This document shows, in pieces, positions 3,446-49,771 of a stretch of DNA of 64,000 nt (position 1 is its first letter; each line of letters opens with the position of its first letter). The stretch comes from Gillisia sp. CAL575 (GTDB taxonomy: Bacteria > Bacteroidota > Bacteroidia > Flavobacteriales > Flavobacteriaceae): contig NZ_APHJ01000054.1 of the NCBI RefSeq assembly GCF_000403785.1, positions 124,001-188,000 of the forward strand, given 5' to 3'. A model generated the notes under the pieces. The model saw nothing but the letters and a program-made list of their open reading frames with translations, was not told the origin of the DNA and searched no databases. Made by a program: the position numbers and the translations under genes.

Positions 3446-4318
3446 TTAAAATAAAGTAATATCTAATTGTAGCACTGTTTTTTCCTTTTCAGGATTCCAC
3501 ATCGCAGTTACATCTACTGGTAATACATAACTTTTTATGGAAATCTGTTTATTAAAGGTAACACCTACATTAATAATATTTCCTTTCCCTTCGGTATAAA
3601 AAGTTTTATCGGTTATAAAAGACCACGCACCACCAGCAAAAAGAGATAGGCTAGAATCTTCGTTCTTCCAAACTTTACTGCTAATTTCAAAATAATGAGT
3701 CCAGGAATCTTTAAAAGTGCCATCTTCTTGCAATTCATAATCTCCAGAGCCACCGCCAACAATTGTGGCTAGATATAATGAGGTGTTGGGAGATATATTA
3801 TATCCTAAATTTACATCTACAAAATTATAGCCTTGAGTTTTATCATAACTCCAGTACTTTAATTTATCCCCTCTTTCCTCTACTCCAGTGTAATTATTGT
3901 GAGATACTGCCTCGATGAAAAATTTATCTGAAAAACGATATTTTGAATAGATTGAAAACTCTTGGTAATAAGCACTCTCTTTTTCTCCTGTGTTTTTATT
4001 TTCAACATCTACTGTAGAAAAACTGGCGCCTCCCCAAAAACCGAATGTGAATTTTTTATTTCGGGAGTTATATTCAATGTTGGTAGCGAGCATAGCTCCA
4101 GGATGAACTACAAATCCATGCCAGGTATGCATATTTTTTAAATGAGCTCCAACACTAAAGGGTTTATAATCTTTAACTTTTTCTTGTTGGTCTTGTGCTG
4201 AAATCAAATTGAATGTGAAAAATAGAAATATGTAGAGTGATATTGAAAGTATGTTATTCGATTTATAACTTATCACATTTGAACTTTTATCTAGTTGGGA
4301 TTTCATTTGATTTTCCAT
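3446..4318 (-). CDS. Putative outer-membrane beta-barrel protein linked to a sugar ABC importer
   Basis: Secreted protein with a signal peptide ending in LISAQ, followed by about 230 residues of alternating hydrophobic strands rich in aromatic residues. It ends in VLQLDITLF, a terminal strand with the C-terminal Phe typical of BAM substrates. It probably forms a pore for the sugar taken up by the following ABC genes; this is inference from operon position. An in-frame TTG at 4372 extends the frame, but that TTG lies inside a TAnnTTTG promoter box (4370-4377). I therefore place the start at the ATG at 4318, with 4306 as an alternative. No family name is recognised. Confidence 0.7.
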   Translation of the reverse strand: MENQMKSQLDKSSNVISYKSNNILSISLYIFLFFTFNLISAQDQQEKVKDYKPFSVGAHLKNMHTWHGFVVHPGAMLATNIEYNSRNKKFTFGFWGGASFSTVDVENKNTGEKESAYYQEFSIYSKYRFSDKFFIEAVSHNNYTGVEERGDKLKYWSYDKTQGYNFVDVNLGYNISPNTSLYLATIVGGGSGDYELQEDGTFKDSWTHYFEISSKVWKNEDSSLSLFAGGAWSFITDKTFYTEGKGNIINVGVTFNKQISIKSYVLPVDVTAMWNPEKEKTVLQLDITLF

Positions 4319-8469: not shown

Positions 8470-9102
8470 TCAGATTTTAGAAAACAGATGTTTATTTATT
8501 TTTTTTAAAATTAATATGCCACATGACATTACTATTAAAATGCCCATCACAGCTAATAGAATTCTTGAGAAAGAAAAGGTGGTTTTATTACCAACTATTT
8601 CTACAAATTCATTTTTTCCTACCTCTAAACTTAAGCTATGCTCATTAGATTTATTTAGTACAAAATGCTCTTTATTAAAACCATCTTTCAATAATACTAA
8701 GGCACTTTGATTTTTATAGATCTCTTTAAAAGCAGTGTTTTTTACATATACTGAATTTATATTTGTAGGTACCCCAAACACCTCGAATATAACTTTGGTT
8801 TCATGACCTAACTTTACAATTCCCGCACTCAAAGTGATTTCTTGCTCTTTATTAAATCGTATTGTAAGATTCTTTTTTATGTGTTCTAATACCATTTGCC
8901 GAAACTCATCCGGTGTTTTATAAGGTGTTTCAGAATAATGTGTCCTAATTTCCTGCTGAAAAGCAGTTAAAGAAGCACTTATTTGTAAGATCCAAACGTT
9001 ATTTTCCTTTTCTACCAACATCGTTGTAGATACATTTGGTTGATGGGCTTTTGCCGTAATGGAGGTTAGGAAAAAAAATAAAAAAAAGATTGTTTTAAAC
9101 AT
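8470..9102 (-). CDS. Secreted, C-terminally membrane-anchored protein of unknown function
   Basis: No family recognised. From the ATG at 9102 the protein has a signal peptide (MFKTIFFLFFFLTSITAKA) and starts the mature chain with HQPNVS. About 160 residues of periplasmic domain follow, and one C-terminal transmembrane helix (ILLAVMGILIVMSCGILIL) precedes a short basic tail. A longer frame from 9135 would overlap the preceding gene and spoil the signal peptide, so 9102 is preferred. It follows the YHYH lipoprotein gene by 13 bp and shares its LytTR-type promoter. The His directly after the predicted cleavage site could bind a metal, which is speculation. Confidence 0.75.
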   Translation of the reverse strand: MFKTIFFLFFFLTSITAKAHQPNVSTTMLVEKENNVWILQISASLTAFQQEIRTHYSETPYKTPDEFRQMVLEHIKKNLTIRFNKEQEITLSAGIVKLGHETKVIFEVFGVPTNINSVYVKNTAFKEIYKNQSALVLLKDGFNKEHFVLNKSNEHSLSLEVGKNEFVEIVGNKTTFSFSRILLAVMGILIVMSCGILILKKINKHLFSKI

Positions 9103-9115
9103 GATTTTTATATTT

Positions 9116-10120
9116 TTAGTTGGCGTATGCGCCATATAAACAGTTTATAAAGTTGTTATTTCCTGGTGCATCTGCATGATAGTGATATCCTCGGGTTTCA
9201 TCATAATGACCTCTACAATCATCCAAATCTGTTGGTTCATTAGCATTAGCATCCAATTGTGCAAACAACCCATGACCATCTAGAGCATAACCAATCATTG
9301 CTGCGTGATTATCTATTTGACTAATTTTAGTAGATACGCCTGTTGCAGCATGATAATGATATCCAGCATTTAAATTGATATGTCCTCCAGCATCATCAAA
9401 AGGTGCCAAAGTATAGGCTCCTAAAATAGCATCTGTTGGCGCAGGAGCATCAAATACAACTCCGTTAAAAGCTATTCCTCTTTGCGATGGTCCTTGTTCT
9501 CCCATACCTGGAAATCCTCCTGGTCCTCCAAAGGCAACAGAACTAGATAATTTAACAGGTGTAATTGGTATAAGGTAGGTTTGTGTTAGATCTGCAACAT
9601 ATGATGGTAAACACTCTACGCAAAAATTCTCATACTCGGCTCCCACATTAGGATTTGCAGCATTTGCACAGTCATCTTCGGTTGACGTTTTATAAATATC
9701 TCCATTAGCATCATACATTTGCCAAGTCGTATCGTTGTAAAATGTTGCCATATTTTCAATAAACGCGCCATCTACATCATATACTTGTCCGTTTTCTAAC
9801 CAAATTCCACCGGCAGTTGCATCATCAGAAATATTATCTGGACACCAAGGACCCATTTCATGATCTGAAGGGGTGCTGTTTGCAACTATCTGATAGCAAT
9901 CTGTTACAGTTCCATCAGATAGTGTACATGGAACTGTTGTGATTTTTACTGCTGAAGTGTTTGTTAAAAATAATGATGAATCTACATCTAGAACAAGACC
10001 TTCAGCTGGATCTATAGTTATATCATTATTGTCGCTCTCACAACCACATGCAACACAAACTAGAAGAGCGAAAACTATCGCGGAAAATTTTATTGGGATT
10101 TTAATCATTTTACTTTTCAT
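9116..10120 (-). CDS. YHYH domain-containing lipoprotein
   Basis: Secreted lipoprotein (signal residues 1-26 with a VACGC lipobox region) carrying a YHYH domain. YHYH motifs lie at residues 254-257 and 312-315, with nearby GGHIN, GHGLF and GHYDE. The His-rich pattern suggests metal binding, but no biochemical function is established for the domain. Several Cys pairs and a Gly-rich loop near residue 200 are also present. It is the first gene of an operon with the membrane-anchored protein at 8470-9102, behind a LytTR-like operator at 10236-10262. A second YHYH protein is encoded at 11700-12458. Confidence 0.85.
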   Translation of the reverse strand: MKSKMIKIPIKFSAIVFALLVCVACGCESDNNDITIDPAEGLVLDVDSSLFLTNTSAVKITTVPCTLSDGTVTDCYQIVANSTPSDHEMGPWCPDNISDDATAGGIWLENGQVYDVDGAFIENMATFYNDTTWQMYDANGDIYKTSTEDDCANAANPNVGAEYENFCVECLPSYVADLTQTYLIPITPVKLSSSVAFGGPGGFPGMGEQGPSQRGIAFNGVVFDAPAPTDAILGAYTLAPFDDAGGHINLNAGYHYHAATGVSTKISQIDNHAAMIGYALDGHGLFAQLDANANEPTDLDDCRGHYDETRGYHYHADAPGNNNFINCLYGAYAN

Positions 10121-10195: not shown

Positions 10196-10203
10196 CAAAG
10201 ATG
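10196..10203 (-). promoter_or_regulatory. -7 box (CATCTTTG) of the YHYH operon
   Basis: Minus-strand CATCTTTG deviates from TAnnTTTG at the first base, as do the two other boxes placed at the same distance from a LytTR-like operator. A weak core promoter is what an activator-dependent gene would show. The operator edge lies exactly 33 bp upstream. Confidence 0.5.
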
Positions 10204-10235
10204 TGGATTTGTTTAAGAGGAATTTTGAGATTTCT

Positions 10236-10262
10236 GTGAATCATCCAAACTTTTAAGTGAAT
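10236..10262 (-). promoter_or_regulatory. Putative LytTR operator, direct repeat with 21-bp period (YHYH operon)
   Basis: On the minus strand two ATTCAC half-sites (plus strand GTGAAT at 10236 and 10257) are spaced 21 bp apart. The distal one is extended to ATTCACTTAAAA. The same arrangement occurs at 14582-14608 and 17397-17423. Direct repeats two helical turns apart are the classic LytTR layout. The response regulator at 18545-19216 is the obvious candidate. Confidence 0.65.
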
Positions 10263-10354
10263 CTGTGATTGTACTCAATTAAAAAAAAAATAGCCATTAA
10301 AATCATCTTAGTTTCAATGCTTGTTTCAAATATGTCTACCACATTGTTAATAAA

Positions 10355-10524
10355 AATCAAACCCCAACCTCTTCGCTCCTATTTAAAGAAACTCGAGATT
10401 GGGGTTGAAAATATTTTGGCTAATCCGCTATTTTTTAGACCATTTAGCAAGGTCTAGCAAATAGACTTTTTTTCTTCATAGGCGCTTATTCTTTTTTTAA
10501 GGTTTGTATATCGGCAATTAGTTG
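10355..10524. repeat. 170-bp direct repeat, copy 2 (overlaps the SCO1-like gene end)
   Basis: Matches 8254-8423 with 8 mismatches. The right-hand 39 bases are the last codons and stop of the SCO1-like gene; the rest is its downstream region. A hairpin of AACCCCAACCTC against GAGATTGGGGTT (one mismatch) is kept in both copies and may act as a terminator or RNA element. Confidence 0.9.
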
Positions 10525-11151
10525 CTGAATTGCTGTTTTATTTAATCCATTATAAATTCCTCTTATGTGTTTGTTTTTATCTATTAACACAAAGTTTTCG
10601 GTGTGTAAAAAATCTTCCTCGGTTTTGGTTTCTCCTAGATCTTCTTCTACAAAATAGGAGTTTCGGCCCAAATCATAGATTTCACTTCTTTCCCCAATTA
10701 CCAAATGCCATTTTTCAGAAATCACCTCATTCTCAACGGCATACTTCTTAAGGATTGCTACCGAATCATAATCTGGTGTAACCGAATGTGACAGTAATAA
10801 AACTTCATTATCTTTTTTAAACTCCTCTTGCAACACGCTCATATTATCTGTCATCTTCAAGCAAATTCCCGGGCAAGTGGTAAAGAAAAAATCGGCTACA
10901 TAGATCTTACCATCAAATGATTCATTGGTAATAGTAGCTCCTTCCTGATCTATTAAACTAAAATCTGGAATCTTATGGAATGCTTCAACCTGTATACTGT
11001 TCGGTTTTAACCATTGTGGAGTAAAACTAGCTTCGTTATAATAAGGAAGTGATTCTACCCTACTTGTTTGCTCTTCTGTATTTTCACAACTTACTACGAG
11101 AATAAGCAAGCTTAGCATTCCGAAAATTTTATTGATATTGTACATTTTCAT
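10486..11151 (-). CDS. SCO1/SenC family lipoprotein (copper chaperone-type thioredoxin fold)
   Basis: Membrane-anchored thioredoxin-fold protein of the SCO family, which delivers copper to or maintains thiols of CuA-type oxidases. The signal peptide ends in a lipobox (LVVSC, C22). The copper-binding CPGIC motif has C93 and C97, and the third ligand is H183 in FLHTENFVLID. The start at 11151 overlaps the preceding gene by 23 bp, and a later Met at 11118 would avoid this. It is the last gene of an operon running from 12458 (YHYH, YwqK-like, SCO). Its final codons are duplicated at 8387-8423. Family is secure; the metal partner is unproven. Confidence 0.9.
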   Translation of the reverse strand: MKMYNINKIFGMLSLLILVVSCENTEEQTSRVESLPYYNEASFTPQWLKPNSIQVEAFHKIPDFSLIDQEGATITNESFDGKIYVADFFFTTCPGICLKMTDNMSVLQEEFKKDNEVLLLSHSVTPDYDSVAILKKYAVENEVISEKWHLVIGERSEIYDLGRNSYFVEEDLGETKTEEDFLHTENFVLIDKNKHIRGIYNGLNKTAIQQLIADIQTLKKE

Positions 11152-11704
11152 CTTTTAATTGATAACATAAATTCGTTCTTTTCATTCCAAAAACACGTCC
11201 GTTCTTAGCTTCGTAATTCACATAGATTTTCCCGTTTTCTAACCAAGCTTGTTGCAAGCCATTCTCTTTACCATCTAGATAAGTAGTTTTCCTTGCAAGC
11301 TGCCCGTTAGAGAACCATTTTTTTTGTATTCCATGGCGAGCTCTATTCTTATAATTGGATTCTGCACTAAGCGTTCCATCGGGCCACCAACTTTTAAGCG
11401 AACCTTCTAGTTGGTTTTCGTTATAAAGTGATTGCTTAGCAAGAGTTCCATCTATATACCAAGCCTCGGCAAGTCCTTGTTTTTTGCCATCAAAATAACC
11501 CATCCTTGACTCTAATTGACCTGAAGTATAGTGACTTATTGCATATCCATTAAAGACTTTACCATCGTAGTACCACCTTCCCTCCAGAGGATTTAGTTTT
11601 AGCTCTGCCTTATCGATTTGAAAATCGCTAATTGTAAGCATATTATCTTTTTGTTTCTGGCAAGCAGAAAGCAGCACTAAACCAATGATCAGTAAGAACT
11701 TAAT
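11129..11704 (-). CDS. YwqK-family/MORN-like repeat lipoprotein, probable ATT start
   Basis: Repeat protein of the 'YwqK antitoxin' family. At least six copies of a WxxDGxL/WxxNGxL type motif occur (WYYDGKVFNGYAI, WYIDGTLAKQ, WWPDGTLSAE, WFSNGQLARK, WLENGKIYVN). Reading from an ATT at 11704 gives KFLLIIGLVLLSAC, a perfect lipoprotein signal. That ATT overlaps the TAA stop of the YHYH gene by one base, implying coupled translation. The nearest in-frame ATG is at 11773, which forces a 74-bp overlap and 23 extra residues before the signal peptide. The toxin-antitoxin label of the family has weak support; here it is a surface protein. Confidence 0.75.
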   Translation of the reverse strand: MKFLLIIGLVLLSACQKQKDNMLTISDFQIDKAELKLNPLEGRWYYDGKVFNGYAISHYTSGQLESRMGYFDGKKQGLAEAWYIDGTLAKQSLYNENQLEGSLKSWWPDGTLSAESNYKNRARHGIQKKWFSNGQLARKTTYLDGKENGLQQAWLENGKIYVNYEAKNGRVFGMKRTNLCYQLKDENVQYQ

Positions 11705-12458
11705 TAATAGAACTTGGTGTCCCTTGATATGCTCCCGGAAAAATAATGTAATACTGGTTGTTGTATAATTCATTTTCTATGTGATAATGGTATTCAGTTT
11801 CTGTGTTATGTTGTGTAATGCTCGTATGTCCTCCTGAAGCATCTAAATCTGTTGGATAAGTTCCTGTAGAATTACATTTTCTTCCGTAGATAAAAAAACC
11901 ATCTGCCAGGATCCCTACCAATTTATCGTCATCTTCTGTCCAAGCTTTCGGTTCTAAATGATAATGATACTCTTGTGGCCCAATATGCCCACCGGTATAA
12001 TCTAAACTTGCAGCAGCCTGATCTAAGGCTCCATTTCCTTCCTGATCATTAAAAATAGCGGCACCACTTATTGCAATTCCAATTGCTCCCAAACTTGTTG
12101 AAGTTGGGGAACTCGCTTTTTGAGGATCTTGTGAAACCGTTAAAGTTGCAGATGCATCGTAATTTGGGATAATACTCGGTGTTAATGCAACATTAGGTTC
12201 TTCTATATATAATGCATTTCCTTCTCCCCAATAAACGCTGGTATGATTTGGATTTCCGGTGGTCTCAATAACTACATTACTTCCACTTAAATAGATAGAA
12301 GTTTCATCGGTATCAAATTCTGCAAATGCAGCATGTAGTTCTCCTGTTGTAGTAACTTCATCGATGCTTTCATCATCATTACTGCAAGCAATAAAGGCGA
12401 AAACGATCATTGTAATTGTGCTTAAAACGGCTAGTCTGGTTTTGTTTTTCTTAATCAT
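11700..12458 (-). CDS. YHYH domain-containing lipoprotein (second copy)
   Basis: Secreted lipoprotein with lipobox FIAC (C25) and a YHYH domain with motifs at residues 164-167 and 223-226, plus GGHIG and GGHTS. It is shorter (252 aa) than the other YHYH protein at 9116-10120 and the two diverge outside the domain. It heads the operon leading to the YwqK-like and SCO1-like genes. No LytTR-type site was found in its short upstream region (12459-12543). The domain is probably metal-binding, inferred from the His clusters and the SCO1 neighbour. Confidence 0.85.
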   Translation of the reverse strand: MIKKNKTRLAVLSTITMIVFAFIACSNDDESIDEVTTTGELHAAFAEFDTDETSIYLSGSNVVIETTGNPNHTSVYWGEGNALYIEEPNVALTPSIIPNYDASATLTVSQDPQKASSPTSTSLGAIGIAISGAAIFNDQEGNGALDQAAASLDYTGGHIGPQEYHYHLEPKAWTEDDDKLVGILADGFFIYGRKCNSTGTYPTDLDASGGHTSITQHNTETEYHYHIENELYNNQYYIIFPGAYQGTPSSIN

Positions 12459-12543
12459 GATTTCTATTATTAAATTTTAGTTTACTTTTTAATTATTTGT
12501 TATATATCTTAAGTTATAATGACTTATTTGTATAATGCTCTTG

Positions 12544-13293
12544 TTAATTATCTAATTCTTTATTTAGTTTGAATGCTATCATTTGAGTTTTTTCTCTTAA
12601 ACTATTACTTATAATCAATTGATTTTCTGTTTGTAATAATCTATCCACTAGGATATTTTGAAATTTTCGGCTATTCAACAATTCCTTATAATCAGATTCA
12701 TTTGAAACGAACTTAACCTCTGTGTTTTTTTTATCTCTTATTAAAAGAATATCTAATAGTGAAATATGGGTTTCCAATACAGGTTGCAAACGGTTAACAA
12801 TTAGATTATTAATTTTTGCCTCCTGAATTTCGAAATTGTCTAGTTCGTTTGGGTAGGCTGCAATTAGATCTCGTAACGAGTCACTTTCAATAAATTCAAA
12901 TTTGTTAGTACTATTAATGGAACTCATGGATCCACTGTGCAATTTTGTGGGTGTATAATTCACTCTAATAATTCCATCTTTTATTTCTTCGGTTAATTTC
13001 TGGGGCTGAGAACGAATACTGTTGATCGTGTTTTGAATAGTTTGTATATTTTCTGCATATCTGAAAATGGAAGAATCGAGAAGGCTTAAATTAGAATTCA
13101 ATTCATCATTGAGACTTTGGTAGATTTTTACTTCTACAATTCTATTTTTATTTATTTCATTTAAATCATTGATTTTCCAGGCAATTAATATCCCCACAAC
13201 TATCAAAAAAATTTCTCCAAAAGCATAGATCAAGTAACTTTTGGTTTTCCCTGAAATCAATAAGTTTTTTCTGATTTTTCTGAATAATTTCAT
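12544..13293 (-). CDS. DUF6090 family protein
   Basis: Membrane-anchored protein of the DUF6090 family, widespread in Flavobacteriia and of unknown function. A short basic N-terminus (MKLFRKIRKNLL) is followed by one transmembrane helix in YAFGEIFLIVVGILIAWKIN, the hallmark of the family. About 200 mostly helical residues with coiled-coil character then extend into the periplasm. It lies downstream of the truncated CotH gene but behind that gene's terminator (13336-13373), so it probably has its own promoter. A degenerate second copy is at 14820-15363, in the same relative position to the second CotH gene. Confidence 0.8.
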   Translation of the reverse strand: MKLFRKIRKNLLISGKTKSYLIYAFGEIFLIVVGILIAWKINDLNEINKNRIVEVKIYQSLNDELNSNLSLLDSSIFRYAENIQTIQNTINSIRSQPQKLTEEIKDGIIRVNYTPTKLHSGSMSSINSTNKFEFIESDSLRDLIAAYPNELDNFEIQEAKINNLIVNRLQPVLETHISLLDILLIRDKKNTEVKFVSNESDYKELLNSRKFQNILVDRLLQTENQLIISNSLREKTQMIAFKLNKELDN

Positions 13294-13335
13294 AATTAGA
13301 CCTCCGAATTAGACTTTTATATTCTTAACTATTTT

Positions 13336-13373
13336 TAAAAAAGGCTCCACGAGTTCAACATCGTGAAGCCTTT
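13336..13373 (-). terminator. Intrinsic terminator after the truncated CotH gene
   Basis: The stem AGGCTTCACGA/TCGTGGAGCCT (one mismatch) with an 8-base loop is followed on the minus strand by TTTTTT. The same hairpin design follows the full-length CotH gene at 15406-15445. Confidence 0.8.
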
Positions 13374-13458
13374 AACCACTAACCACAAAAATCATTTTAA
13401 CCTTTAACTTATAACCACTCAAAATCACTTAAACGTATTATTTCTGTCTTGCGTTTTC

Positions 13459-14187
13459 TTATAAAACTTGTTCGGCTGGCATAGTTTCATCAACTTCTTC
13501 CACCATGGTATATACTCCAAAATACTGTGCCCCTTCCCCATGGTCTACATAAACAGTATAAAATGCCTTGTGAGAAGTTTCTAAAACTTCATCGCTAAGT
13601 TCACTGGTTGCTGTTTTATCTTTCAAAATTAATTTATCACTAAAATTATTTTTCAGAATTAGTTTATTAAAGCCATAAAACCGCTGATTTTCAATTTGGG
13701 GATAATCCTCTTCAAACTCATCAAAATCTAATTTGTAGGCTAATTTTAAAATTCCGCTTTGCCAACTTTTTTGTAAATCTGAAGTTTCCTTAAAACCTAC
13801 CCCAACACGATACCATTCCAGTCCATTATAAAATACCTCTGCAGGCATAGAAATGGGATCTATGTCCCCACCACTTGGACTGCTTGGTACTCCAAAAGCA
13901 CCATAGATCGCTGTCATATCATCTAGCATATTTTGCCAACGCGCTTCAGTAATAACTATATCTAATCTTTTTACAGCATTATCTCCGAAAACTTCCTCAA
14001 AATCTGGACTTACACCATCACTATGTGTTTCTACTGTCCAGTCTGTTGTCTCAAAATCTGTGTCATCTACTTCTCCTAGTTCGTTGATTATACTATCATC
14101 GCTACTACATGAGTTAAGACTTATTAGCAGTGCACCAAAGCTTAAGACTTTAAAGAATAGGCTTATATTCTTTTTTATTTTTTTCAT
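13459..14187 (-). CDS. Truncated CotH-kinase-like lipoprotein (N-terminal half only)
   Basis: Paralogue of the CotH protein encoded at 15569-16996, cut to 242 aa. It keeps the lipobox (C27), the GEVDDTDFE linker and the N-lobe up to YTMVEEVDETMP. It then ends before the segments holding the catalytic residues (GNIYKPDG, NWDTYG, WIPWDNNEA in the full copy). The conserved RFKGNSS motif has also changed to GFKETSD. It cannot be an active kinase. It follows the EF-hand gene by 34 bp. It is either a decaying duplicate or a domain reused without catalysis. Confidence 0.8.
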   Translation of the reverse strand: MKKIKKNISLFFKVLSFGALLISLNSCSSDDSIINELGEVDDTDFETTDWTVETHSDGVSPDFEEVFGDNAVKRLDIVITEARWQNMLDDMTAIYGAFGVPSSPSGGDIDPISMPAEVFYNGLEWYRVGVGFKETSDLQKSWQSGILKLAYKLDFDEFEEDYPQIENQRFYGFNKLILKNNFSDKLILKDKTATSELSDEVLETSHKAFYTVYVDHGEGAQYFGVYTMVEEVDETMPAEQVL

Positions 14188-14221
14188 ATACTGAGGGCTC
14201 CAATTTTTTCTAAAATTTTAT

Positions 14222-14509
14222 TTACTTTTTCTCTTTTCTTTTTGGTTTCGGCGCTTTTTCTAATTCCTTGATAGTTAAAAAGCCATCCTCATTAGTATCT
14301 ATCTTTTTAAAATCGTCTTTTAAGGGTCCTTTTACTTCTGCTTTAGAAAGTTTTCCGTCTTCATTTTTATCCATTTGTTTGATAAGTTCCTTAGCCGTAG
14401 GAGGCGTTTTAGGTTGTTTGTTATCTTTAGATTGTGCATTGGTGGAAACTATTCCAAAAACCATTAATAGTGTACTAAAAATCAGTTTATTTATTGTTTT
14501 ACTTTTCAT
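14222..14509 (-). CDS. Secreted EF-hand calcium-binding protein
   Basis: Small exported protein (95 aa) with a signal peptide ending near STNAQ and two canonical EF-hand loops. Loop 1 is DKNEDGKLSKAE (residues 47-58) and loop 2 is DTNEDGFLTIKE (71-82); both have Asp/Asn at 1, 3 and 5, Gly at 6 and Glu at 12. A Lys-rich tail (KPKRKEKK) follows. It probably binds calcium in the periplasm or at the surface. It heads an operon with the CotH-like gene, behind a LytTR-like operator 73 bp upstream of its start. Confidence 0.88.
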   Translation of the reverse strand: MKSKTINKLIFSTLLMVFGIVSTNAQSKDNKQPKTPPTAKELIKQMDKNEDGKLSKAEVKGPLKDDFKKIDTNEDGFLTIKELEKAPKPKRKEKK

Positions 14510-14541
14510 GATAAAATATTTATTGTTATTGTTTTACACTT

Positions 14542-14549
14542 CAAATATC
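14542..14549 (-). promoter_or_regulatory. -7 box (GATATTTG) of the first EF-hand/CotH operon
   Basis: Minus-strand GATATTTG is one base from TAnnTTTG. It lies 33 bp downstream of the operator at 14582-14608, the same distance as at the other two LytTR-type promoters. Confidence 0.5.
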
Positions 14550-14581
14550 ATAAATAAAGACATACACTTTCTAGGCTTTCA

Positions 14582-14608
14582 GTGGATAGCCATAGGTTTT
14601 AAGTGAAT
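14582..14608 (-). promoter_or_regulatory. Putative LytTR operator, direct repeat with 21-bp period (first EF-hand operon)
   Basis: Plus-strand GTGGAT at 14582 and GTGAAT at 14603 are 21 bp apart, the distal one within TTTTAAGTGAAT. A possible weaker third half-site (GTTAAC) follows at 14624, again 21 bp on. The arrangement matches that upstream of the second EF-hand gene almost base for base. Confidence 0.65.
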
Positions 14609-14819
14609 GGGCAAAAGCATTCAGTTAACATTAATCCGGAATGTCTTAAAAGCCCGATTCTTTATGTTTTTCGGCTTATTCTCTTATCTTTCATATATCT
14701 AAAAAACTTTAAAATAGTATTATCCCCTGGCCATTACTTGACTAAAATTATATGTTATAGCAGATTGAAATCTCAATATTCTTCCTTAATAGTTTCCTAT
14801 TAGATCTAGAAACTATGGA

Positions 14820-15363
14820 TTGAATTTTATCTCTCAAACTATTTCCGATTTTTAACTGGTTTCCTATTTGAAATGACCAACCTATTAAAATGTTTTTTGA
14901 TTGTTCGCAAAGTATCCTAAACTGAAAAAAGACGTTATTCTGAACTAGTTTCAGAATCTCATTTTATTGTAAATCAATAGAATATTGAGACCCTAAAATA
15001 AATTCAGGCTGACCAAAGAATTGTTAGGACAAAAAACGGATATGCCTAAATGTTTTCTGCTATTCAATAATGCAGTAATTCCAGAATCAGTTGAAAAAAT
15101 TTTGATCTTATTTACTTTTATATCACTATTTAAATGAATATTGATAAATGATATAATCGCTTTTAGTTCTAGTTTAAATCGGTTAATGATATGGTTATTG
15201 ATTTTGAATTCCTGATCTTCGGAAATATCTAATTCATTCTGGTACGCAGCAATTAGATCACTTTATATAAATTCGAATTAATTTATGCTATCACATAATC
15301 CAAGTAGCTTTTAAATTCTCCTGAAGCCATTAGTTCCCTTCTTATTTTTATAAATTTTTTCAA
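14820..15363 (-). pseudogene. Degenerate DUF6090 gene copy
   Basis: Minus-strand pieces match the intact DUF6090 protein at 12544-13293. KFIKIRRELMASGEFKSYL corresponds to its N-terminus, LIAAYQNELDISEDQEFKIN to its middle, and ILIGWSFQIGNQLKIGNSLR to its C-terminal part. The start codon, transmembrane helix and much of the centre are gone, and stops interrupt the frame. A repeat element (14936-15020) sits between the middle and C-terminal pieces. It shows that the whole EF-hand/CotH/DUF6090 block was once duplicated. Confidence 0.85.
14936..15020. repeat. Intergenic repeat element inside the DUF6090 remnant
   Basis: Contains TTCTGAACTAGTTTCAGAAT, a palindrome of the type also seen near 20700-20870 and at 32625-32663, followed by CTCATTTTATT. 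It interrupts the homology between the remnant and the intact DUF6090 gene, so it may have been inserted there. Confidence 0.5.
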
Positions 15364-15405
15364 GTCAAGGAATTCTTTTTTTATATTCAAAATTTTAATT
15401 TTATA

Positions 15406-15445
15406 TAGAAAAAGGCTCCATGAATTTTACTTCATGAAGCCTTCA
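15406..15445 (-). terminator. Intrinsic terminator after the full-length CotH gene
   Basis: The stem AAGGCTTCATGAA/TTCATGGAGCCTT (one mismatch) is followed on the minus strand by TTTTTC. It is homologous in position and sequence to the terminator at 13336-13373, again showing block duplication. Confidence 0.75.
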
Positions 15446-15568
15446 ACTTCTAACCAAAAAAAACTTATAAAAAATAAAGAAGCTCAGGGCTAGCCCACGA
15501 GCTATTCTTTGAAAGATATTTTTTAAAATTCGAGGCAAGCCTCGGGGAATTAAATCCTCAATCAGGGA

Positions 15569-16996
15569 TTAATCTAAATAATTACTTACCACAGTAGTTC
15601 GGGATGTTACATGGGAGTTTAATTGATCTACCGCTATTTGAAAATCTGAGCTATTATATAGAAATGTATATCCAGGTATTTCTGATGTTGCATAAGGTTC
15701 TATTAAAGCAGCGTATTTAGAGTATTGAGCTTGAATAGATGTTACATTAAATGCATCTTCAACAACTTCTTTTACATAAGTGTCATATTTTTCTTTATAC
15801 ACTGGATCTTGGTATAGATATCCAATTAAAGGCCATTCTGATGTAGTTACATTGGAAAAATCTAATGTTGCGGCACTTTCTCTCTTCCCATCCTGTAAGG
15901 CTTCGTTATTATCCCAAGGAATCCAGGTTAGTTTATTGGTATCTGGATTGTTATATAAAAAATAATTATGTGTCATTTTTCCATAAGTATCCCAGTTTTG
16001 AATGACTGTGTTTGCTGCCAAGTATTTTAGAAAGACATCTGTGTCAAATATGGGTTCAAGGTTCGCTCTCCATGTCGCTGCATCGGTGGTTCTTGAGTCA
16101 TCATGTAACGCATCTAATAAGCTCTGAACATCAGAAAAATCAGCTTCGTCTTCATTATTTTTCTTTACATATTCTTCTTCGTTATAACTCCCAATTGCAA
16201 AACTTGCAGCTTCACCATCTGGTTTGTATATATTTCCATCATCATCAGAAAATTGTGTATCCAAAACAGTATCATCAACTTCTTCAACCATAGTATATAC
16301 ACCAAAATATTGTGGTCCATCTCCGTGATCTACATATAAGGTGTAAAATGCAGTATGAGAACCAACTAAGCCTGCATTTCTAAAAACATCTCCAGCTACT
16401 TTTTCCCTTAGCATAGACTTGTCATCATAATTATTTTTAAGGCTTAACTTTTTAAATCCATAAAAGCGTTGATTGTCTATTTGTGGGTAATCATCTTCAT
16501 ATTCATCAAAATCCAGTTTGAATGATAATTTTAAAATACCGTTTTGCCAGCTGGTTTGTAAACTAGAGTTTCCCTTAAAACGAACTCCAACACGATACCA
16601 TTCCAATCCATTATAAAACACCTCTGCCGGTACAAAAATAGGATTCTCGTCAGTGTCAGATAATCCTCCCCCTGGACCTCCGCCTCCAGCTCCAAATGTT
16701 CCATAAGTTTCAGTCATGTTATCTAACATTTTTTGCCAACGCACTTCACTGATTACAATATCTAGTCGTTTTACTGCATTGTCTTGAAATACTTCATCAA
16801 AATTTGGATCTGCATCTTTACTGTGTGTTTCTGTTGTCCAATCTGTAGCTTCAAAATCTGTATCGTCCACTTCCCCTAATACTTCCACTACCTCGGTTGT
16901 AGCATCATCGCTGGTACATGCATTAAAAGTCATTAATATTGTGCTAAATAGCAATGCTATAAATAATTGGTTTAAGCTCTTTTTAAATTTTCTCAT
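15569..16996 (-). CDS. CotH kinase family lipoprotein
   Basis: Exported member of the CotH family, atypical protein kinases first known from spore coats. The signal peptide ends in a lipobox (FNAC; C27 counted from the ATG). The N-lobe has VRFKGNSSLQ, and GNIYKPDG lies near residue 255. The catalytic C-lobe has QNWDTYGKMTHNYFLYN and TWIPWDNNEAL, matching the family's DWD-type active-site region. A Gly-rich insertion lies near residue 105. The start is the ATG at 16996; a TTG directly before it is ignored. It is predicted to phosphorylate secreted or surface substrates. It follows the broken second EF-hand gene by 38 bp. Confidence 0.87.
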   Translation of the reverse strand: MRKFKKSLNQLFIALLFSTILMTFNACTSDDATTEVVEVLGEVDDTDFEATDWTTETHSKDADPNFDEVFQDNAVKRLDIVISEVRWQKMLDNMTETYGTFGAGGGGPGGGLSDTDENPIFVPAEVFYNGLEWYRVGVRFKGNSSLQTSWQNGILKLSFKLDFDEYEDDYPQIDNQRFYGFKKLSLKNNYDDKSMLREKVAGDVFRNAGLVGSHTAFYTLYVDHGDGPQYFGVYTMVEEVDDTVLDTQFSDDDGNIYKPDGEAASFAIGSYNEEEYVKKNNEDEADFSDVQSLLDALHDDSRTTDAATWRANLEPIFDTDVFLKYLAANTVIQNWDTYGKMTHNYFLYNNPDTNKLTWIPWDNNEALQDGKRESAATLDFSNVTTSEWPLIGYLYQDPVYKEKYDTYVKEVVEDAFNVTSIQAQYSKYAALIEPYATSEIPGYTFLYNSSDFQIAVDQLNSHVTSRTTVVSNYLD

Positions 16997-17034
16997 CAAT
17001 TTTATTTTATTAAATTTTTAGAATTTTTAACTAT

Positions 17035-17323
17035 TTAGTTTCGCTCTTTTCTTTTTAGTTTTGAGGCTTTTTCTAGTTCTTTTTTCGAAATAAAACCATC
17101 CTCATCTGGATCTATCTTCTTGAAATCCTTCTTTAATTGCCCTCTCACTTCTTCTTTAGATAGTTTTCCATCCTTACTGGTATCTAATTCTTTTAAAATT
17201 TCTTTAGCCCTTGGTGGGGTTTTAGGCTTTTCATTATTCCTTAATAGTGCATGGGAGGTTCCTATTCCTAAAATCAGTAGTGAGGTACTAGGTAGGAGTC
17301 ATTTTATTGTTTTTACTTTTCAT
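17035..17323 (-). pseudogene. Secreted EF-hand protein, second copy, frameshifted in the signal peptide
   Basis: Homologue of the EF-hand gene at 14222-14509. The ATG at 17323 opens MKSKNNKMTPT and then a stop. After a one-base shift the frame continues as STSLLILGIGTSHALLRNNE and KPKTPPRAKEILKELD, with EF-hand loops DTSKDGKLSKEE and DPDEDGFISKKE, ending at 17035. An extra A in an early A-run together with local rearrangement explains the shift. The calcium loops are intact, so this may be a recent mutation or an assembly error. It would head the operon of the full-length CotH gene. Confidence 0.8.
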
Positions 17324-17356
17324 GATTAAAATTTTAATTTTTCTTGATTTCCACTT

Positions 17357-17364
17357 CAAAGGTC
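17357..17364 (-). promoter_or_regulatory. -7 box (GACCTTTG) of the second EF-hand/CotH operon
   Basis: Minus-strand GACCTTTG, one base from TAnnTTTG, is 33 bp downstream of the operator at 17397-17423, as at the two other promoters of this set. Confidence 0.5.
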
Positions 17365-17396
17365 ATTAAATGAAACATGCACAATTTTTGTTTTCT

Positions 17397-17423
17397 GTGA
17401 ATAGGCGAAGCTTTTAAGTGAAT
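17397..17423 (-). promoter_or_regulatory. Putative LytTR operator, direct repeat with 21-bp period (second EF-hand operon; divergent to the two-component genes)
   Basis: Plus-strand GTGAAT at 17397 and 17418 are 21 bp apart, the distal one within CTTTTAAGTGAATGGG. A third related GTAAAC lies at 17439, again 21 bp on. The site lies between the EF-hand/CotH operon and the histidine-kinase gene starting at 17515, so it could also give autoregulation. Confidence 0.65.
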
Positions 17424-17514
17424 GGGTTAAAGCCTTCAGTAAACATCTATTCAGAAGCTCTTAAATGCCCTCCATTTTAGAATATGCTGATTTTTAATTC
17501 CCTTTATTTGTACT

Positions 17515-18552
17515 ATGAACAAAACTATAAGACTCCTATTTCAAGTTATAATCTGGATATTTATTTGGCTTGCATTATGGTTTGCAGCAGATAAGAACCC
17601 AAGGTTTTTCCAAAGCAATGTCGTGGCATTTGGTTTTCAAATTCTATTAATTACAGGTTTAATATTCTATGCAGCTCCGACCCTGTTATTCAAGAAAAAA
17701 TATTGGCTTTTTGTGCTAGTTTCTGTTTTGGCACTTGGAGTAAGTTTGTATTTTGCTACCAGTTTTTCCCAATCCCCTCCAATTCCAAAACCTGAAAATT
17801 TTCCTGATCTACCCAGAAATGGAATTAATGAGCCTATAAATAGACCACCTCCTGGCGGTGGATTTTTAATTCATCTTTTATTGCTTACAATATCTTATAG
17901 TATTGCAACCTTTTTAGAGACTTTTATATTCGCACAAAAGAAAGAAGAGGAAATAATTATAAATAAGAATGAAGGTCTGCAAACCGAACTTAAATTTTTA
18001 AAATCGCAGATCAATCCTCATTTCTTATTTAATTCTTTAAATAATATTTATGCGCTTTCTGCGATAGATACCACCAAAACTCAACAAAGCATTAGCTATT
18101 TATCAGATATGTTACGCTATGTACTTTATGAATGTGATAAAGCCTTGGTTTCAATTAAAAAGGAAATTTTGTACATAGAAAATTACATCAGCTTATTCAG
18201 CCTTAAAAGCAGTAAACCCTATCCCATAGCAATCGATCTTCAATTAGAAAATCCAAATGTCTCGATAGCTCCTATGTTGCTAATTCCTTTTGTGGAAAAT
18301 GCCTTTAAGCATAGTAATATTGAAAAGCGAACCGGATCATTTATCAATATTTCAATAGTTTCTAATAGCAAAGAGATCATTTTCAAAATTGAAAATTCGA
18401 AACCGGAACAAACTATGAACAAGGATGATGTTGGCGGAATAGGCATAATTAATGTAAAAAAAAGATTGTCTATATTATATCCTGAAACCCACAATTTATT
18501 AATTACAGATACTACCGAAATTTATAAAGTAGAATTAAAACTGAATGTCTAG
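17515..18552 (+). CDS. LytS-type sensor histidine kinase
   Basis: Inner-membrane sensor kinase of the His_kinase (PF06580-type) family. Four transmembrane helices cover residues 1-140, with a Pro-rich extracytoplasmic loop (about 87-115) that could sense a ligand. A short coiled segment leads to the phospho-acceptor box KSQINPHFLFNSLNN (H169). The ATPase part has PMLLIPFVENAFKHS (253-267) and GGIGIINVKKRL (307-318). The stop overlaps the response-regulator start by 8 bp. A TTTATTTG just before the ATG suggests a nearly leaderless mRNA. The signal is unknown; calcium or envelope metal stress is a guess from the regulon. Confidence 0.92.
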   Translation: MNKTIRLLFQVIIWIFIWLALWFAADKNPRFFQSNVVAFGFQILLITGLIFYAAPTLLFKKKYWLFVLVSVLALGVSLYFATSFSQSPPIPKPENFPDLPRNGINEPINRPPPGGGFLIHLLLLTISYSIATFLETFIFAQKKEEEIIINKNEGLQTELKFLKSQINPHFLFNSLNNIYALSAIDTTKTQQSISYLSDMLRYVLYECDKALVSIKKEILYIENYISLFSLKSSKPYPIAIDLQLENPNVSIAPMLLIPFVENAFKHSNIEKRTGSFINISIVSNSKEIIFKIENSKPEQTMNKDDVGGIGIINVKKRLSILYPETHNLLITDTTEIYKVELKLNV

Positions 18553-19216
18553 AACAAAATGTTTAATAATCGACGATGAGGAGTTAGCAAGAGGCTTACT
18601 TAAAACTTATGTAGCGAAAATAGATTCTTTAGAATTGGTTGGTTCTTTTGAAAGCGCTCTAGATGCTTTGCAGATCATAAAAACTGAAACTATAGATCTT
18701 ATTTTTTTAGACATACAGATGCCGGATCTTAAAGGAACCGATTTTGCCAAGCTAGTGGATGCTAAAACTAAAATAATCTTTACTACGGCATATTCTGAAT
18801 ATGCTCTAGATGGTTTTGAATTGAATGCCTTGGATTATCTTTTAAAACCGATCACATTCGAACGTTTTTTAACTGCTGTAAACAAATTAGAAGCCAATAA
18901 TTCTAACGAATCACAAACTACCATAACTGTAAAGTCTGGGTACGACTTACATAAACTTAATTTAGAAGAAATTACACATATAGAAAGTGATAGCGAATAT
19001 GTGATTTTTTATACCGGCAATAACAAAGTGATGAGCAATCAATCTCTAAAATCTTTAGAGCGAACATTACCGAATAATTTTATGCGAGTGCATCGATCTT
19101 ATATAGTAAACAAGAACAAGGTAACTGGTTTAAAAAGCCGGGATCTTCTGCTTTCTGATCTTAGGATCCCGGTAAGTGATTCTTATTTTGAACTGGTAAA
19201 AAAAGAATTGTTTTAA
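18545..19216 (+). CDS. LytTR-family response regulator
   Basis: Partner of the histidine kinase. The receiver domain (1-120) has the acidic pair in LIIDDEE, phospho-acceptor D56 in FLDIQMP, the Thr in FTTAYSEYAL and the Lys in YLLKPI. The C-terminal 100 residues are a LytTR DNA-binding domain (HIESDSEYVIFYT, TLPNNFMRVHRSYIVNK). LytTR domains bind tandem direct repeats about 21 bp apart, exactly the arrangement found upstream of three operons in this region. It is therefore the likely activator of the YHYH and EF-hand/CotH operons. Confidence 0.93.
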   Translation: MSRTKCLIIDDEELARGLLKTYVAKIDSLELVGSFESALDALQIIKTETIDLIFLDIQMPDLKGTDFAKLVDAKTKIIFTTAYSEYALDGFELNALDYLLKPITFERFLTAVNKLEANNSNESQTTITVKSGYDLHKLNLEEITHIESDSEYVIFYTGNNKVMSNQSLKSLERTLPNNFMRVHRSYIVNKNKVTGLKSRDLLLSDLRIPVSDSYFELVKKELF

Positions 19217-21066: not shown

Positions 21067-22617
21067 CTACCAGCTAATAGGCCTGTAATCTTTCAGGAAT
21101 TTACCACACCAATGTTTCCCGGTATTGATGCCATCGAATAAAGGATCCATTACTCTTGCAGCTCCATCTACGATATCTAAAGGTGGCTGAAAATCGTCTC
21201 GTTCTTGTTTCAGCTTTGCCAAGGCTGCCGGATCTTCATCTGTAACCCAACCGGTATCTACCGCATTCATAAAGATTCCATCCTTAGCTAAGGTACCCGA
21301 AGAGGTGTGTGTAAGCATATTTAAAGCTGCTTTAGCCATATTGGTATGTGGATGACGATCTTCTTTGAAACCTGGATAAAACTTCCCTTCCATCGCCGAA
21401 ACATTAATAATATGTTTTTTTCCTGTGTTGTCCTTTTTCATTATTTCGGAAAGTCTATTGCATAAAACAAACGGCGCTACTGAATTTACCAATTGTACCT
21501 CTATCATCTCTGTAGTTTCAATTTCACCTAATTTTAAGCGCCAGGAATTAGTTTTTCTAAGGTCAACTTGCTGCAAATCGGCATCCAATTCTCCTTCCGG
21601 AAATACTTCTTTGGCAACCAGGGTATTGTCGAAACTATAAGGGATCTGGGATAATTTTGCTGAAGCCCGCAATCCAATTCCGGGTTCAGGGCCATGCCAA
21701 GTAACCGGCATGTTAGTATTGGATGATGCTCCCGTAGTTAGCACCTTTAATTCTTGCAAACAATCACCATGATCTGCTAATAGATCTCTAGCATATTCTG
21801 GCAAGGAAGCAATGGATCGTTCTTCATTTGGCATAAGGTGCTGATAAAAGCCAGAAGGTCGACGCACTGTTTGTGCTGCATTATTAATGAGGATATCCAA
21901 TCGCTCATATTTGTTCTCGATAAAATTGCAGAAGATCTCTACACTTGGAATATGTCGTAAATCGAGTCCGTGAATTTTTAAGCGGTGTCCCCATTCGGTA
22001 AAATCTTCTTCTTTAGAAAATCTCAAGGCAGAATCTACCGGAAAACGAGTAGTCGCGATCACGGTTGCTCCGCCACGCAAAAGCATTAAACTAATATGAT
22101 ATCCTATTTTTAATCGGGAGCCGGTAATTACGGCCACTTGTCCTTTTACATCCGCATTCTGAAAACGCTTGGCATAATTAAAATCGCCACAGCTAGTACA
22201 CATAGAATCGTAAAAATGATGCATTTTGGTGAATTCTGTACTGCAGACATAGCATTTTCTGGGAGTTTCTAATTCCAGTTCCGTTTTATTTGCCAAATGA
22301 GCCATGGGAAGCAATTTGGGAGCTACAAATACCGAAGCTTCCCTAGCATTTCTAATTCCGGTTTCTTTACGTGCAGTTTTATCCTTGGCTTCCTGTTTGC
22401 GCTTTGCTGCTTTTTTTCCATCCTTTTTTCGTCTGGAAAATTCATCGCGATCTGGTCTCGAGAACATTCCAGCTACTTTTAAAAGTTCAGTTCTTTGTTC
22501 TTTTGGGATATCGAAGATCTGATCGGTATCTTCAACTAATTTCGCCAATACCGCAATACAGTTTTCAATTTGTGTTGAAGTGATCGCATTTATAACTTCT
22601 GTTTCATTCTCCTTCAT
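21067..22617 (-). CDS. Zinc-finger SDR-family protein with a replaced catalytic Tyr (copy 1)
   Basis: Short-chain-dehydrogenase-fold protein of 516 aa, twice the usual SDR length. Residues 1-100 are a helical, Lys/Arg-rich region. C122, C125, C140 and C143 form a CxxC...CxxC zinc site. The Rossmann part has TGSRLKIG (165-172), NNAAQ (245-249) and catalytic-type Ser in NVSAMEG (S407). The YxxxK position reads TNMAK (T425, K429), so the usual catalytic Tyr is absent. An insertion of about 100 residues follows NNAAQ. A close paralogue is at 48204-49751 with the same features. Substrate unknown; it may be a non-canonical enzyme. Confidence 0.82.
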
Positions 22618-48203: not shown

Positions 48204-49751
48204 TTACCAATCTATTGGTCTATAATCTTTAAGGAATTTTCCGCACCAATGTTTGCCTGTATTAATTCCATCGAATAATGGATCCATCACTCTTGCAGCA
48301 CCATCAACAATATCCAAAGGAGGTTGGAAATCATGGACTTCCACTTTTTTCTTAGACAATTCTGCAGGATCTTCATCTGTAACCCAACCAGTATCAACCG
48401 CATTCATAAAAATTCCATCTTTTGCAAATGTTCCTGCAGAAGTATGCGTCATCATATTCAATGCAGCCTTCGCCATATTGGTATGTGGATGTCTATCTTC
48501 TTTTTTGAATCTATGAAATTTTCCTTCCATAGCAGAAACGTTAATAATATGTTTTTTACCTGTATTGTCCTTTTTCATTAAGTCTGAAAGCCGATTACAT
48601 AGAACAAATGGAGCAACCGAATTCACCAATTGAACCTCGATCATTTCTGTAGTTTCTATCTCCCCTAGTCTTAATCTCCAACTATTGGTCTTTCTAAGAT
48701 CTACTTGCTGCAAATCTGCATCTAGTTCTCCTTCTGGAAACACCTCTTTTGTAGAAAGTGAATTATCAAAACTATATGGAATCTGAGATAATTTAGCTGA
48801 TGCTCTTAATCCTATTCCAGGTTCGGGTCCATGCCATGTCACTGGCAAAACATTATTTTGATTATTGGAAGAGCCTTCTGTTAAGGATTTTAATTCTTGT
48901 AAGGAATTAAAATGATCTGTTAATAGGTCTTTCGCAAATTGCGGTAAAGAATCATATGGTAACTCTTCCTTTTCCATTAAATGTGCAAAGAACCCTGAAG
49001 GTCTACGTACAGTTTGAGCTGCATTATTTATAAGAATATCTAAACGTTCATATCGCTGCTCTATAAAATTACAGAAGATTTCTACACTAGGAATATGCCT
49101 TAGATCTAATCCGTGAATTTTTAAACGATCTCCCCATTCTTGAAAGTCATGTTCTTTGGAAAATCGCAATGCGGAATCTACAGGGAACCTGGTGGTTGCA
49201 ACTACTGTTGCTCCTGCCCTTAATAACATTACGGTAATATGATAACCTATTTTAAGCCTCGAGCCCGTTACCACGGCAACTTGTCCAGTGAGATCTGCAG
49301 TTTGATAACGCTTTGCATAGTTGAAATCACCACATTCTGTACACATGGTATCATAAAAATGATGCAATTTAGTGTACATAGTCTTACAAACATAACAGTT
49401 ACGCGGGGATTCTAATTCTGGGCGTTCATCTGCTGGAATGTCAACAATACTAGGTGCAATAAAAATAGTCGCTTCTCTGGCACTTCTAATTCCGGTTTCT
49501 TTTCGGGCATGCTTATCTCGCTCTATCATCTTCCTTTTCGCAGCCTTTTTAGAATCTTTTTTCCTCTTAACAAATTCGTCTCTACTTGGGCGTGTTAATG
49601 CTCCAGCGGCCTTCATTAAGGCGATTCTTTTTTCTTCAGAAAGATCGAAAATCTGATTAGAATCTTCAACTAAAGACTCTAACATAGCAATGCACAAATT
49701 GATATCTGCTTCACTTAAATTTTCTTTTATTTCATCTTTAACAGAACTCAT
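48204..49751 (-). CDS. Zinc-finger SDR-family protein with a replaced catalytic Tyr (copy 2)
   Basis: Paralogue of the protein at 21067-22617, colinear along its whole length. The basic helical N-terminus, the CYVC...CTEC zinc site, [21 protein letters not shown] and the long central insertion are all kept. The Ser/Lys pair in NVSAMEG and TNMAK is also kept, again with Thr where the SDR Tyr belongs. The start is the ATG at 49751 (a GTG codon precedes it). The VF530 gene follows. Retention of the same unusual residues in two copies argues for a working but non-classical activity. Confidence 0.82.
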
Positions 49752-49771
49752 CACATAAAATTTTCAGTCTG

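Follow-up and report, generated by a model that had tools for sequence, protein, structure and literature searches.

The stretch of DNA analysed here, called the window below (64,000 nucleotides of Gillisia sp. CAL575, contig NZ_APHJ01000054.1, positions 124,001 to 188,000), encodes a LytS-type membrane histidine kinase (HK) and a response regulator (RR) in overlapping genes, with genes for EF-hand, CotH and YHYH proteins nearby on the opposite strand (Table 1). As in LytS-type pairs, a PF06580 (His_kinase) gene adjoins the regulator gene, and RR joins a receiver domain to a LytTR DNA-binding domain, so that a LytTR response regulator is indeed encoded where a prediction made earlier from the sequence alone (hereafter the original prediction) had placed one. 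The partner of RR is a PF06580 histidine kinase and not the membrane inhibitor of a LytTR Regulatory System (LRS). No AgrB- or AgrD-type Pfam match was found among the 19 window proteins searched, although short peptides were not searched. By profile, AgrA is the nearest solved LytTR domain to that of RR (9.8e-8). Our results suggest that direct repeats upstream of these genes are, with high probability, the operator of the adjacent HK-RR pair, through which it would control genes for secreted proteins.

The repeats form half-site pairs at 10236/10257, 14582/14603 and 17397/17418, each with a period of 21 bp and all three with TTTTAAGTGAAT in the distal half; a -7-like box on the minus strand lies 33 bp from each proximal half-site, and possible third repeats can be read at 14624 and 17439. 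Direct reading bears out every half-site, box and third-repeat position of the original prediction, as well as the 21-bp pairs and the 33-bp distance at all three promoters. What that prediction missed is that a paralogous duplication (75% identity across 208 bp) links the promoters at 14.5 and 17.4 kb, which are hence not independent, that the third half-site is usually regular, and that operator 3, which starts 123 bp upstream of the HK ATG, would be common to the HK-RR promoter. At the YHYH1 promoter the third repeat is degenerate (ACTCAATTAAA, 10273-10283).

Table 1. Positions of the operators, promoter boxes and genes in the window
Feature	Position	Strand	Remarks
Operator 1	10231..10262	+	half-sites 10231-10241, 10252-10262; 5' of YHYH1-DUF6702 (minus strand); exact genome-scan match; counterpart in G008
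-7-like box CATCTTTG	10196..10203	-	YHYH1 promoter
Operator 2	14577..14629	+	three half-sites 14577, 14598, 14619; 5' of EF-hand 1/short CotH
-7-like box GATATTTG	14542..14549	-	EF-hand 1 promoter
Operator 3	17392..17444	+	three half-sites 17392, 17413, 17434; between EF-hand 2 and HK
-7-like box GACCTTTG	17357..17364	-	EF-hand 2/CotH promoter
TTTATTTG box	17503..17510	+	ends 4 nt upstream of HK ATG
HK, LytS-type membrane histidine kinase	17515..18552	+	PF06580 (His_kinase) 81.6 bits
RR, response regulator	18545..19216	+	proposed operator-binding protein; LytTR PF04397 68.6 bits (cut-off 22.6), Response_reg PF00072 76.5 bits
EF-hand 2 (relic)	17041..17319	-	frameshift near start
Full-length CotH protein	15569..16999	-	Pfam CotH 3.1e-71
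EF-hand 1, 95 aa	14222..14509	-	Pfam EF-hand
Short CotH protein	13459..14187	-	spans 85 of 322 Pfam positions
DUF6090	12544-13293	-	
YHYH2	11700-12458	-	
MORN	11129-11773	-	
SCO1	10486-11151	-	
YHYH1 (YHYH protein)	9116..10120	-	Pfam YHYH
DUF6702 protein	8470..9135	-	downstream of YHYH1

A scan of the whole 3.64-Mb genome (53 contigs) gave exact matches to GTGRAT-N9-TTTTAAGTGAAT at the three window operators only, all inside 7.2 kb. Within the window, the pattern GTGRATN9TTTTAAGTGAAT with at most 3 mismatches gave 3 matches, all exact; shuffled windows gave a mean of 0.58 at this threshold, and 3 of 100 shuffles reached 3. The same tolerance across the genome gave 32 matches (3 exact and 29 with 2-3 mismatches), and a reversed-pattern control gave 26. 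As the counts with 2-3 mismatches in single genomes are near that control, our claims rest on matches with at most 2 mismatches or on position. A scan of 14 genomes found matches with 0-1 mismatch in six of the eight genomes that carry an HK orthologue and in none of the six that do not; a looser scan gave 35 matches versus 14 for the reversed control in the former and 10 versus 14 in the latter.

Orthologues of the kinase are present in 26 of 397 Flavobacteriaceae genomes, including this one, from 20 genera (E<=1e-70; the match in G320 is much weaker); carriers include Eudoraea chungangensis, Flavobacterium muglaense and Wenyingzhuangia aestuarii. Among 119 genomes including this one, seven others have a kinase orthologue with 53-95% identity, the next best by score having 37%. 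In the window and the first seven orthologous regions, TTTnAGTGAA pairs with at most 2 mismatches occur 16 times at 21 bp, overlapping pairs of triple repeats included, and not once at other spacings from 13 to 35 bp. We then counted TTTnAGTGAAT pairs at spacings of 12-35 bp in the 300 bp before HK at 30 loci, which comprise the window, two same-genus relatives and G320 among others, with one Eudoraea locus (L120 = L230) entered only as L230. The best pair at 21 bp had at most 4 mismatches in 24 of the 30 loci, versus 3 or fewer loci at any other spacing, and its mean of 3.23 mismatches compares with 6.03-7.17 elsewhere. The first repeat lies exactly at -123 from the HK ATG in 18 loci and at -102, one period on, in 4 more. 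LytTR operators are defined as 9-11-bp repeats separated by 11-13 bp (PMC4847170), and the repeats found here have these dimensions, with a 21-bp period that stands apart from all other spacings. An alignment of 27 HK loci shows three half-sites, of which the middle one is best conserved and the third is mostly C-n-GT-n-AA. Its register was imposed from the HK start (-123, but -122 for two loci and -120 for one, with the L241 start moved to an upstream ATG); L075, L240 and L244 were left out, and the column counts exclude the near-duplicates L069 and L070. The operator is usually made up of three tandem half-sites, and the check for conservation in relatives, which the original prediction had named as a possible refutation, finds the 21-bp repeats kept before the orthologous HK gene.

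Promoter elements stand at fixed distances on both sides of the operator. On the divergent side we compared offsets from 20 to 59 before repeat 1 for CAAA, the complement of the TTTG of the box. It stands at precisely 35 nt in 20 of the 27 HK-linked operators and in 10 of a further 19, of which 2 are window operators and 17 were hand-picked from 45 places for their plausible targets; no other offset has more than 2 and 1, respectively. This distance from the end of the -7 box puts the operator just upstream of the -35/-33 region of the putative start. The first two bases of the 20 HK-linked boxes are CA in 14, GA in 5 and AC in 1, and T is never first, versus 46 of 62 such boxes in ordinary upstream regions (the window and 20 fetched loci), so that the first-base deviation noted in the original prediction extends to the relatives. 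No TTTG is conserved at -33: across 20 promoters its gap is 16 twice, 17 twice and 10 once, and never 18-24. On the HK side, all 25 loci counted have a T-T-n-n-T-T-T-G that ends 4 nt upstream of the ATG, 118 bp from repeat 1, and L075 and L240 keep these 118 bp though HK begins further downstream. The distances of 35 and of 118 bp are both maintained in different genera of the Flavobacteriaceae.

The Flavobacterium -7 box has been mapped at -12 to -5 (PMC9723704, PMC6847099). With this position, and a box that ends 4 nt upstream, the HK mRNA would start on the ATG, and the HK-RR message is probably leaderless, except at L075 and L240 with their more distal HK starts. Such messages are uncommon in F. 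psychrophilum (5.5%; PMC9723704). Their constant distance from the HK start or its box places the repeats as an operator of the HK-RR promoter, which they may activate. The L075 locus (G029) is the most telling case: no EF-hand gene was found near its HK, the operator is still 118 bp from the HK box, and the unlinked EF-hand and CotH genes of the same genome have operators of their own. Chiefly on this evidence, autoregulation of HK-RR is likely.

Which genes carry the operator was examined from two directions. CotH loci have an operator with at most 4 mismatches within 1.5 kb upstream in 10 of 11 cases when the genome has the HK orthologue and in 0 of 19 when it does not (best 6-8 mismatches); the eleventh is a later gene of a VTC set in G394, with the operator farther off. 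The TTTG box is at its fixed place in 9 of those 10 operators and in none of the 19 loci without an orthologue. The association, tested on 30 of 41 places, has a Fisher value of 3.7e-7 if relatedness is ignored. A fuller pattern in 27 orthologue-bearing genomes gave 87 matches with at most 3 mismatches versus 22 for the reversed control. All 30 matches with at most 2 mismatches were assigned, while those with 3 were viewed only in part: 11 are upstream of HK, 14 are upstream of EF-hand, CotH or YHYH genes, 4 have other genes downstream (a PAP2 lipoprotein, a Cthe_2159 lipoprotein, ferredoxin-ferric reductase genes and VTC-DUF4956), and 1 belongs to the TTTTAGTGAA class described below. Hence 25 of 30 precede HK, EF-hand, CotH or YHYH genes, a count to which HK-linked and same-genus matches contribute partly by construction; outside the genus and away from HK, the fraction before EF-hand, CotH or YHYH genes is still 10 of 15. 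Targets were sought on the divergent strand, where unlinked CotH, EF-hand and YHYH1 genes mostly lie 63-71 bp from the operator, and the nearest gene on the other side was never EF-hand, CotH or YHYH among the places checked. Seventeen of the 45 places examined lie in open reading frames of at least 150 aa, and 16 of these 17 are 3-mismatch matches. The genes found behind unlinked operators in relatives thus include CotH, EF-hand, YHYH and VTC-DUF4956. An overlapping reading frame caused the VTC place (L288) to be flagged as coding, and this place is supported by an HK locus (L238) with divergent VTC-DUF4956-DUF2490-CotH genes. The comparative evidence, with its HK-linked 21-bp repeats and CotH operators that follow the HK-RR orthologue, supports the LytTR regulon put forward in the original prediction, which missed the wider set in relatives.

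The observed sequence, spacing, positions, conservation and co-occurrence of the repeats are consistent with the following mechanism. The membrane kinase would sense a signal and phosphorylate RR, which would bind head-to-tail TTTnAGTGAAt half-sites placed every 21 bp (two helical turns, on the same DNA face), usually three of them. On repeats 1-2, whose centre is ~56 bp upstream of the putative start, RR would activate sigma-A promoters with a -7 box off-consensus at its first base (C/G-AnnTTTG) and without a conserved -33 TTTG. The predicted output comprises the EF-hand/CotH genes, YHYH and, by synteny, the DUF6090-YHYH2-MORN-SCO1 genes, while operator 3 would also serve the HK-RR promoter, with an mRNA starting at the ATG, for autoregulation. 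We further suggest, tentatively and with more doubt than conviction, that the three-repeat operator is a single bidirectional switch in which repeats 1-2 fire EF-hand/CotH and repeats 2-3 the pair's own leaderless message, so that the shared middle repeat, the best conserved, may couple the two outputs or make them compete.

Several observations weigh against assigning the operator to the HK-RR pair. The best pair before HK is no better than shuffles at L231 (p 0.36) and weak at L235 (p 0.19), and none was found before HK at L244, the G320 locus with the weaker HK match. Of the 27 HK-linked operators 7 have an altered divergent box or none, as do 9 of the 19 others. The association is weaker for YHYH1-like places, with at most 4 mismatches in 7 of 20 with an orthologue versus 0 of 10 without (30 of 38 places), some of the places missed being second copies or lying far inside operons. 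Taken singly, the score of a locus carries little weight, as the best pair at some other spacing within 1.5 kb can reach 3-4 mismatches. When the family was scanned with a variant of the motif (at most 1 mismatch), 9 of 26 genomes with an orthologue and 30 of 371 without gave matches, so that 30 of the 39 matching genomes lack the orthologue; many of the matches are a second class, TTTTAGTGAA pairs, often adjoining other response regulators, and the half-site is therefore not exclusive to the HK-RR pair, since a related motif serves other regulators. It may thus be argued that the operator belongs to another LytTR regulator, or is common to several, with the adjacent pair a mere neighbour. This genome has 9 LytTR matches (one with internal stops), 21-bp TTTTAGTGAA pairs stand beside response-regulator homologues in 12 of 20 picked places of the family-wide scan (with LytTR verified in one, L245), and in G048 a good pair lies 45 bp from the HK gene of a paralogue whose regulator is 45% identical (L251). 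We nevertheless consider this distinctly improbable, as the CotH operator follows the orthologue of this very pair and paralogues lack such enrichment: 77 loci of paralogous kinases (1.43 Mb) had no match with at most 2 mismatches, and 21 further paralogue loci (from the 22 of L047-L068, the short L056 being left out) had no clear excess at 21 bp, with a mean of 6.57 mismatches versus 6.67-7.24 and at most 4 in only 1 of 21.

The role of the operator at the HK promoter is a separate matter. If it served the divergent EF-hand genes only, its fixed distance from HK would be a by-product of a conserved short intergenic region; both genes share this region in most loci, the HK box has no conserved -33 TTTG before it, and relative to the HK start the repeats are at ~-76, -97 and -118, a greater distance than is usual for LytTR. 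Such a by-product would, however, hardly keep the 118 bp to the box at L075, which has no EF-hand gene beside HK, or at L240, where HK starts further downstream, nor conserve a third repeat on the HK side, and we regard this explanation as unlikely, if still deserving of weight. Operator control of HK-RR itself is hence our preferred reading. At its targets in general, RR most likely activates rather than represses. CoxC, a LytTR protein, represses through three direct repeats that overlap the -35 box (PMC11347149), whereas the repeats described here sit upstream of the -33 region, with repeats 1-2 centred at ~-56, and activated promoters would be expected to have weak elements like those seen (an off-consensus first base of the -7 box, and a TTTG spaced by 16-17 in no more than 4 of 20); repression by RR is accordingly rather improbable. 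That chance or duplication made three promoters which are just copies of one another is very hard to credit: this would suit promoters 2 and 3, and is contradicted by the fixed-spacing repeats of relatives and by unlinked copies at the same kinds of gene.

In architecture and geometry the system conforms to LytTR systems already known. AgrA of Staphylococcus aureus (P2/P3) similarly combines a LytTR domain, direct repeats upstream of divergent promoters and suboptimal core promoters, with the proximal pair of repeats centred near -60 (PMC4227749); AgrA has separate sites with SarA sites between them, whereas the two promoters described here flank a single run of up to three repeats, with a Bacteroidota -7 box and other targets. 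The LRS, including the LRS-like operons of Bacteroides, share 9-11-bp direct repeats with 11-13-bp spacing just upstream of a promoter, and autoregulation; these repeats tend strongly to lie 10 bp upstream of -35, and most of their gaps are 12 bp (PMC6193735). An LRS works with a membrane inhibitor protein, where the pair described here has a histidine kinase and a receiver-domain regulator, and the Bacteroides repeats (TCCGGTATTCA-11 bp-ACCGGAAATCA) have a 22-bp period, in contrast to 21 bp here. RcoM1 has triple direct repeats with 12-13-bp gaps and CoxC three repeats (PMC11347149), but both are CO-responsive and have another half-site, and CoxC is a repressor that unites sensor and DNA-binding domain in one protein. 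YpdB of Escherichia coli belongs to a LytS/LytTR-type pair with 9-11-bp sites and 11-13-bp gaps (PMC4847170); it differs in its half-site (GGCATTTCAT), its two sites and its targets.

Among the matches listed, we found no paper on a Flavobacteriaceae LytTR operator in the open-access literature, though one may have been missed; the only Bacteroidota case found was the predicted Bacteroides LRS-like repeat (PMC6193735). As far as these searches show, the new features of this system are its half-site, its shared three-repeat operator, its set of targets and its taxon. Half-site, spacing, strand and distance from the promoter make up an operator code that can be put to use, and our results bring together EF-hand, CotH, YHYH and DUF6702, with VTC-DUF4956 and Cthe_2159 in relatives, which are families of unknown role, as one candidate co-regulated set whose function becomes testable by a single regulator deletion. 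On the function of YHYH/CotH/EF-hand and CotH/VTC/DUF4956 combinations, our search of the literature found only one paper, which describes CotH next to a polyphosphate polymerase and DUF4956 in the Pel clusters of Gram-positive bacteria (PMC7112168).

A reading of the TTTTAGTGAA/21-bp motif as a general LytTR code was dropped, since the paralogous LytS/LytTR loci (77 + 21) are without it. The TTTTAGTGAA class lies near response-regulator homologues (near 4000) at L245, L248, L250, L252-L254, L256-L258, L261 and L262, mostly in genomes without the HK orthologue. A LytTR domain and a HisKA_2 kinase were verified at L245 only, and several of the TTTTAGTGAA places also flank large proteins with signal-peptide-like starts.

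The EF-hand-CotH-DUF6090 block of the window seems to have been doubled. EF-hand 2 is 58% identical to EF-hand 1, its G008 counterpart being likewise split in tblastn, and relics of a DUF6090 gene lie at 15035-15292 and 14790-14963 on the minus strand. Of the same-genus genomes, G002 has a single copy of the block and G008 has two. The DUF6090-YHYH2-MORN-SCO1 genes (10486..13293) may, judging by synteny, share one transcript with the genes upstream. No VTC match was found in the window genome; in G394 (L238:10058-14930) the genes divergent from HK encode VTC, DUF4956, DUF2490, CotH and a MauG-type di-haem cytochrome peroxidase. The unlinked operator before the Cthe_2159 lipoprotein gene of G029 (L115:6171) has most of its spacer letters in common with the window YHYH1 operator (10231). 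Finally, the window encodes two 516-aa short-chain-dehydrogenase-like proteins (21067-22617 and 48204-49754) that are 76% identical to each other.

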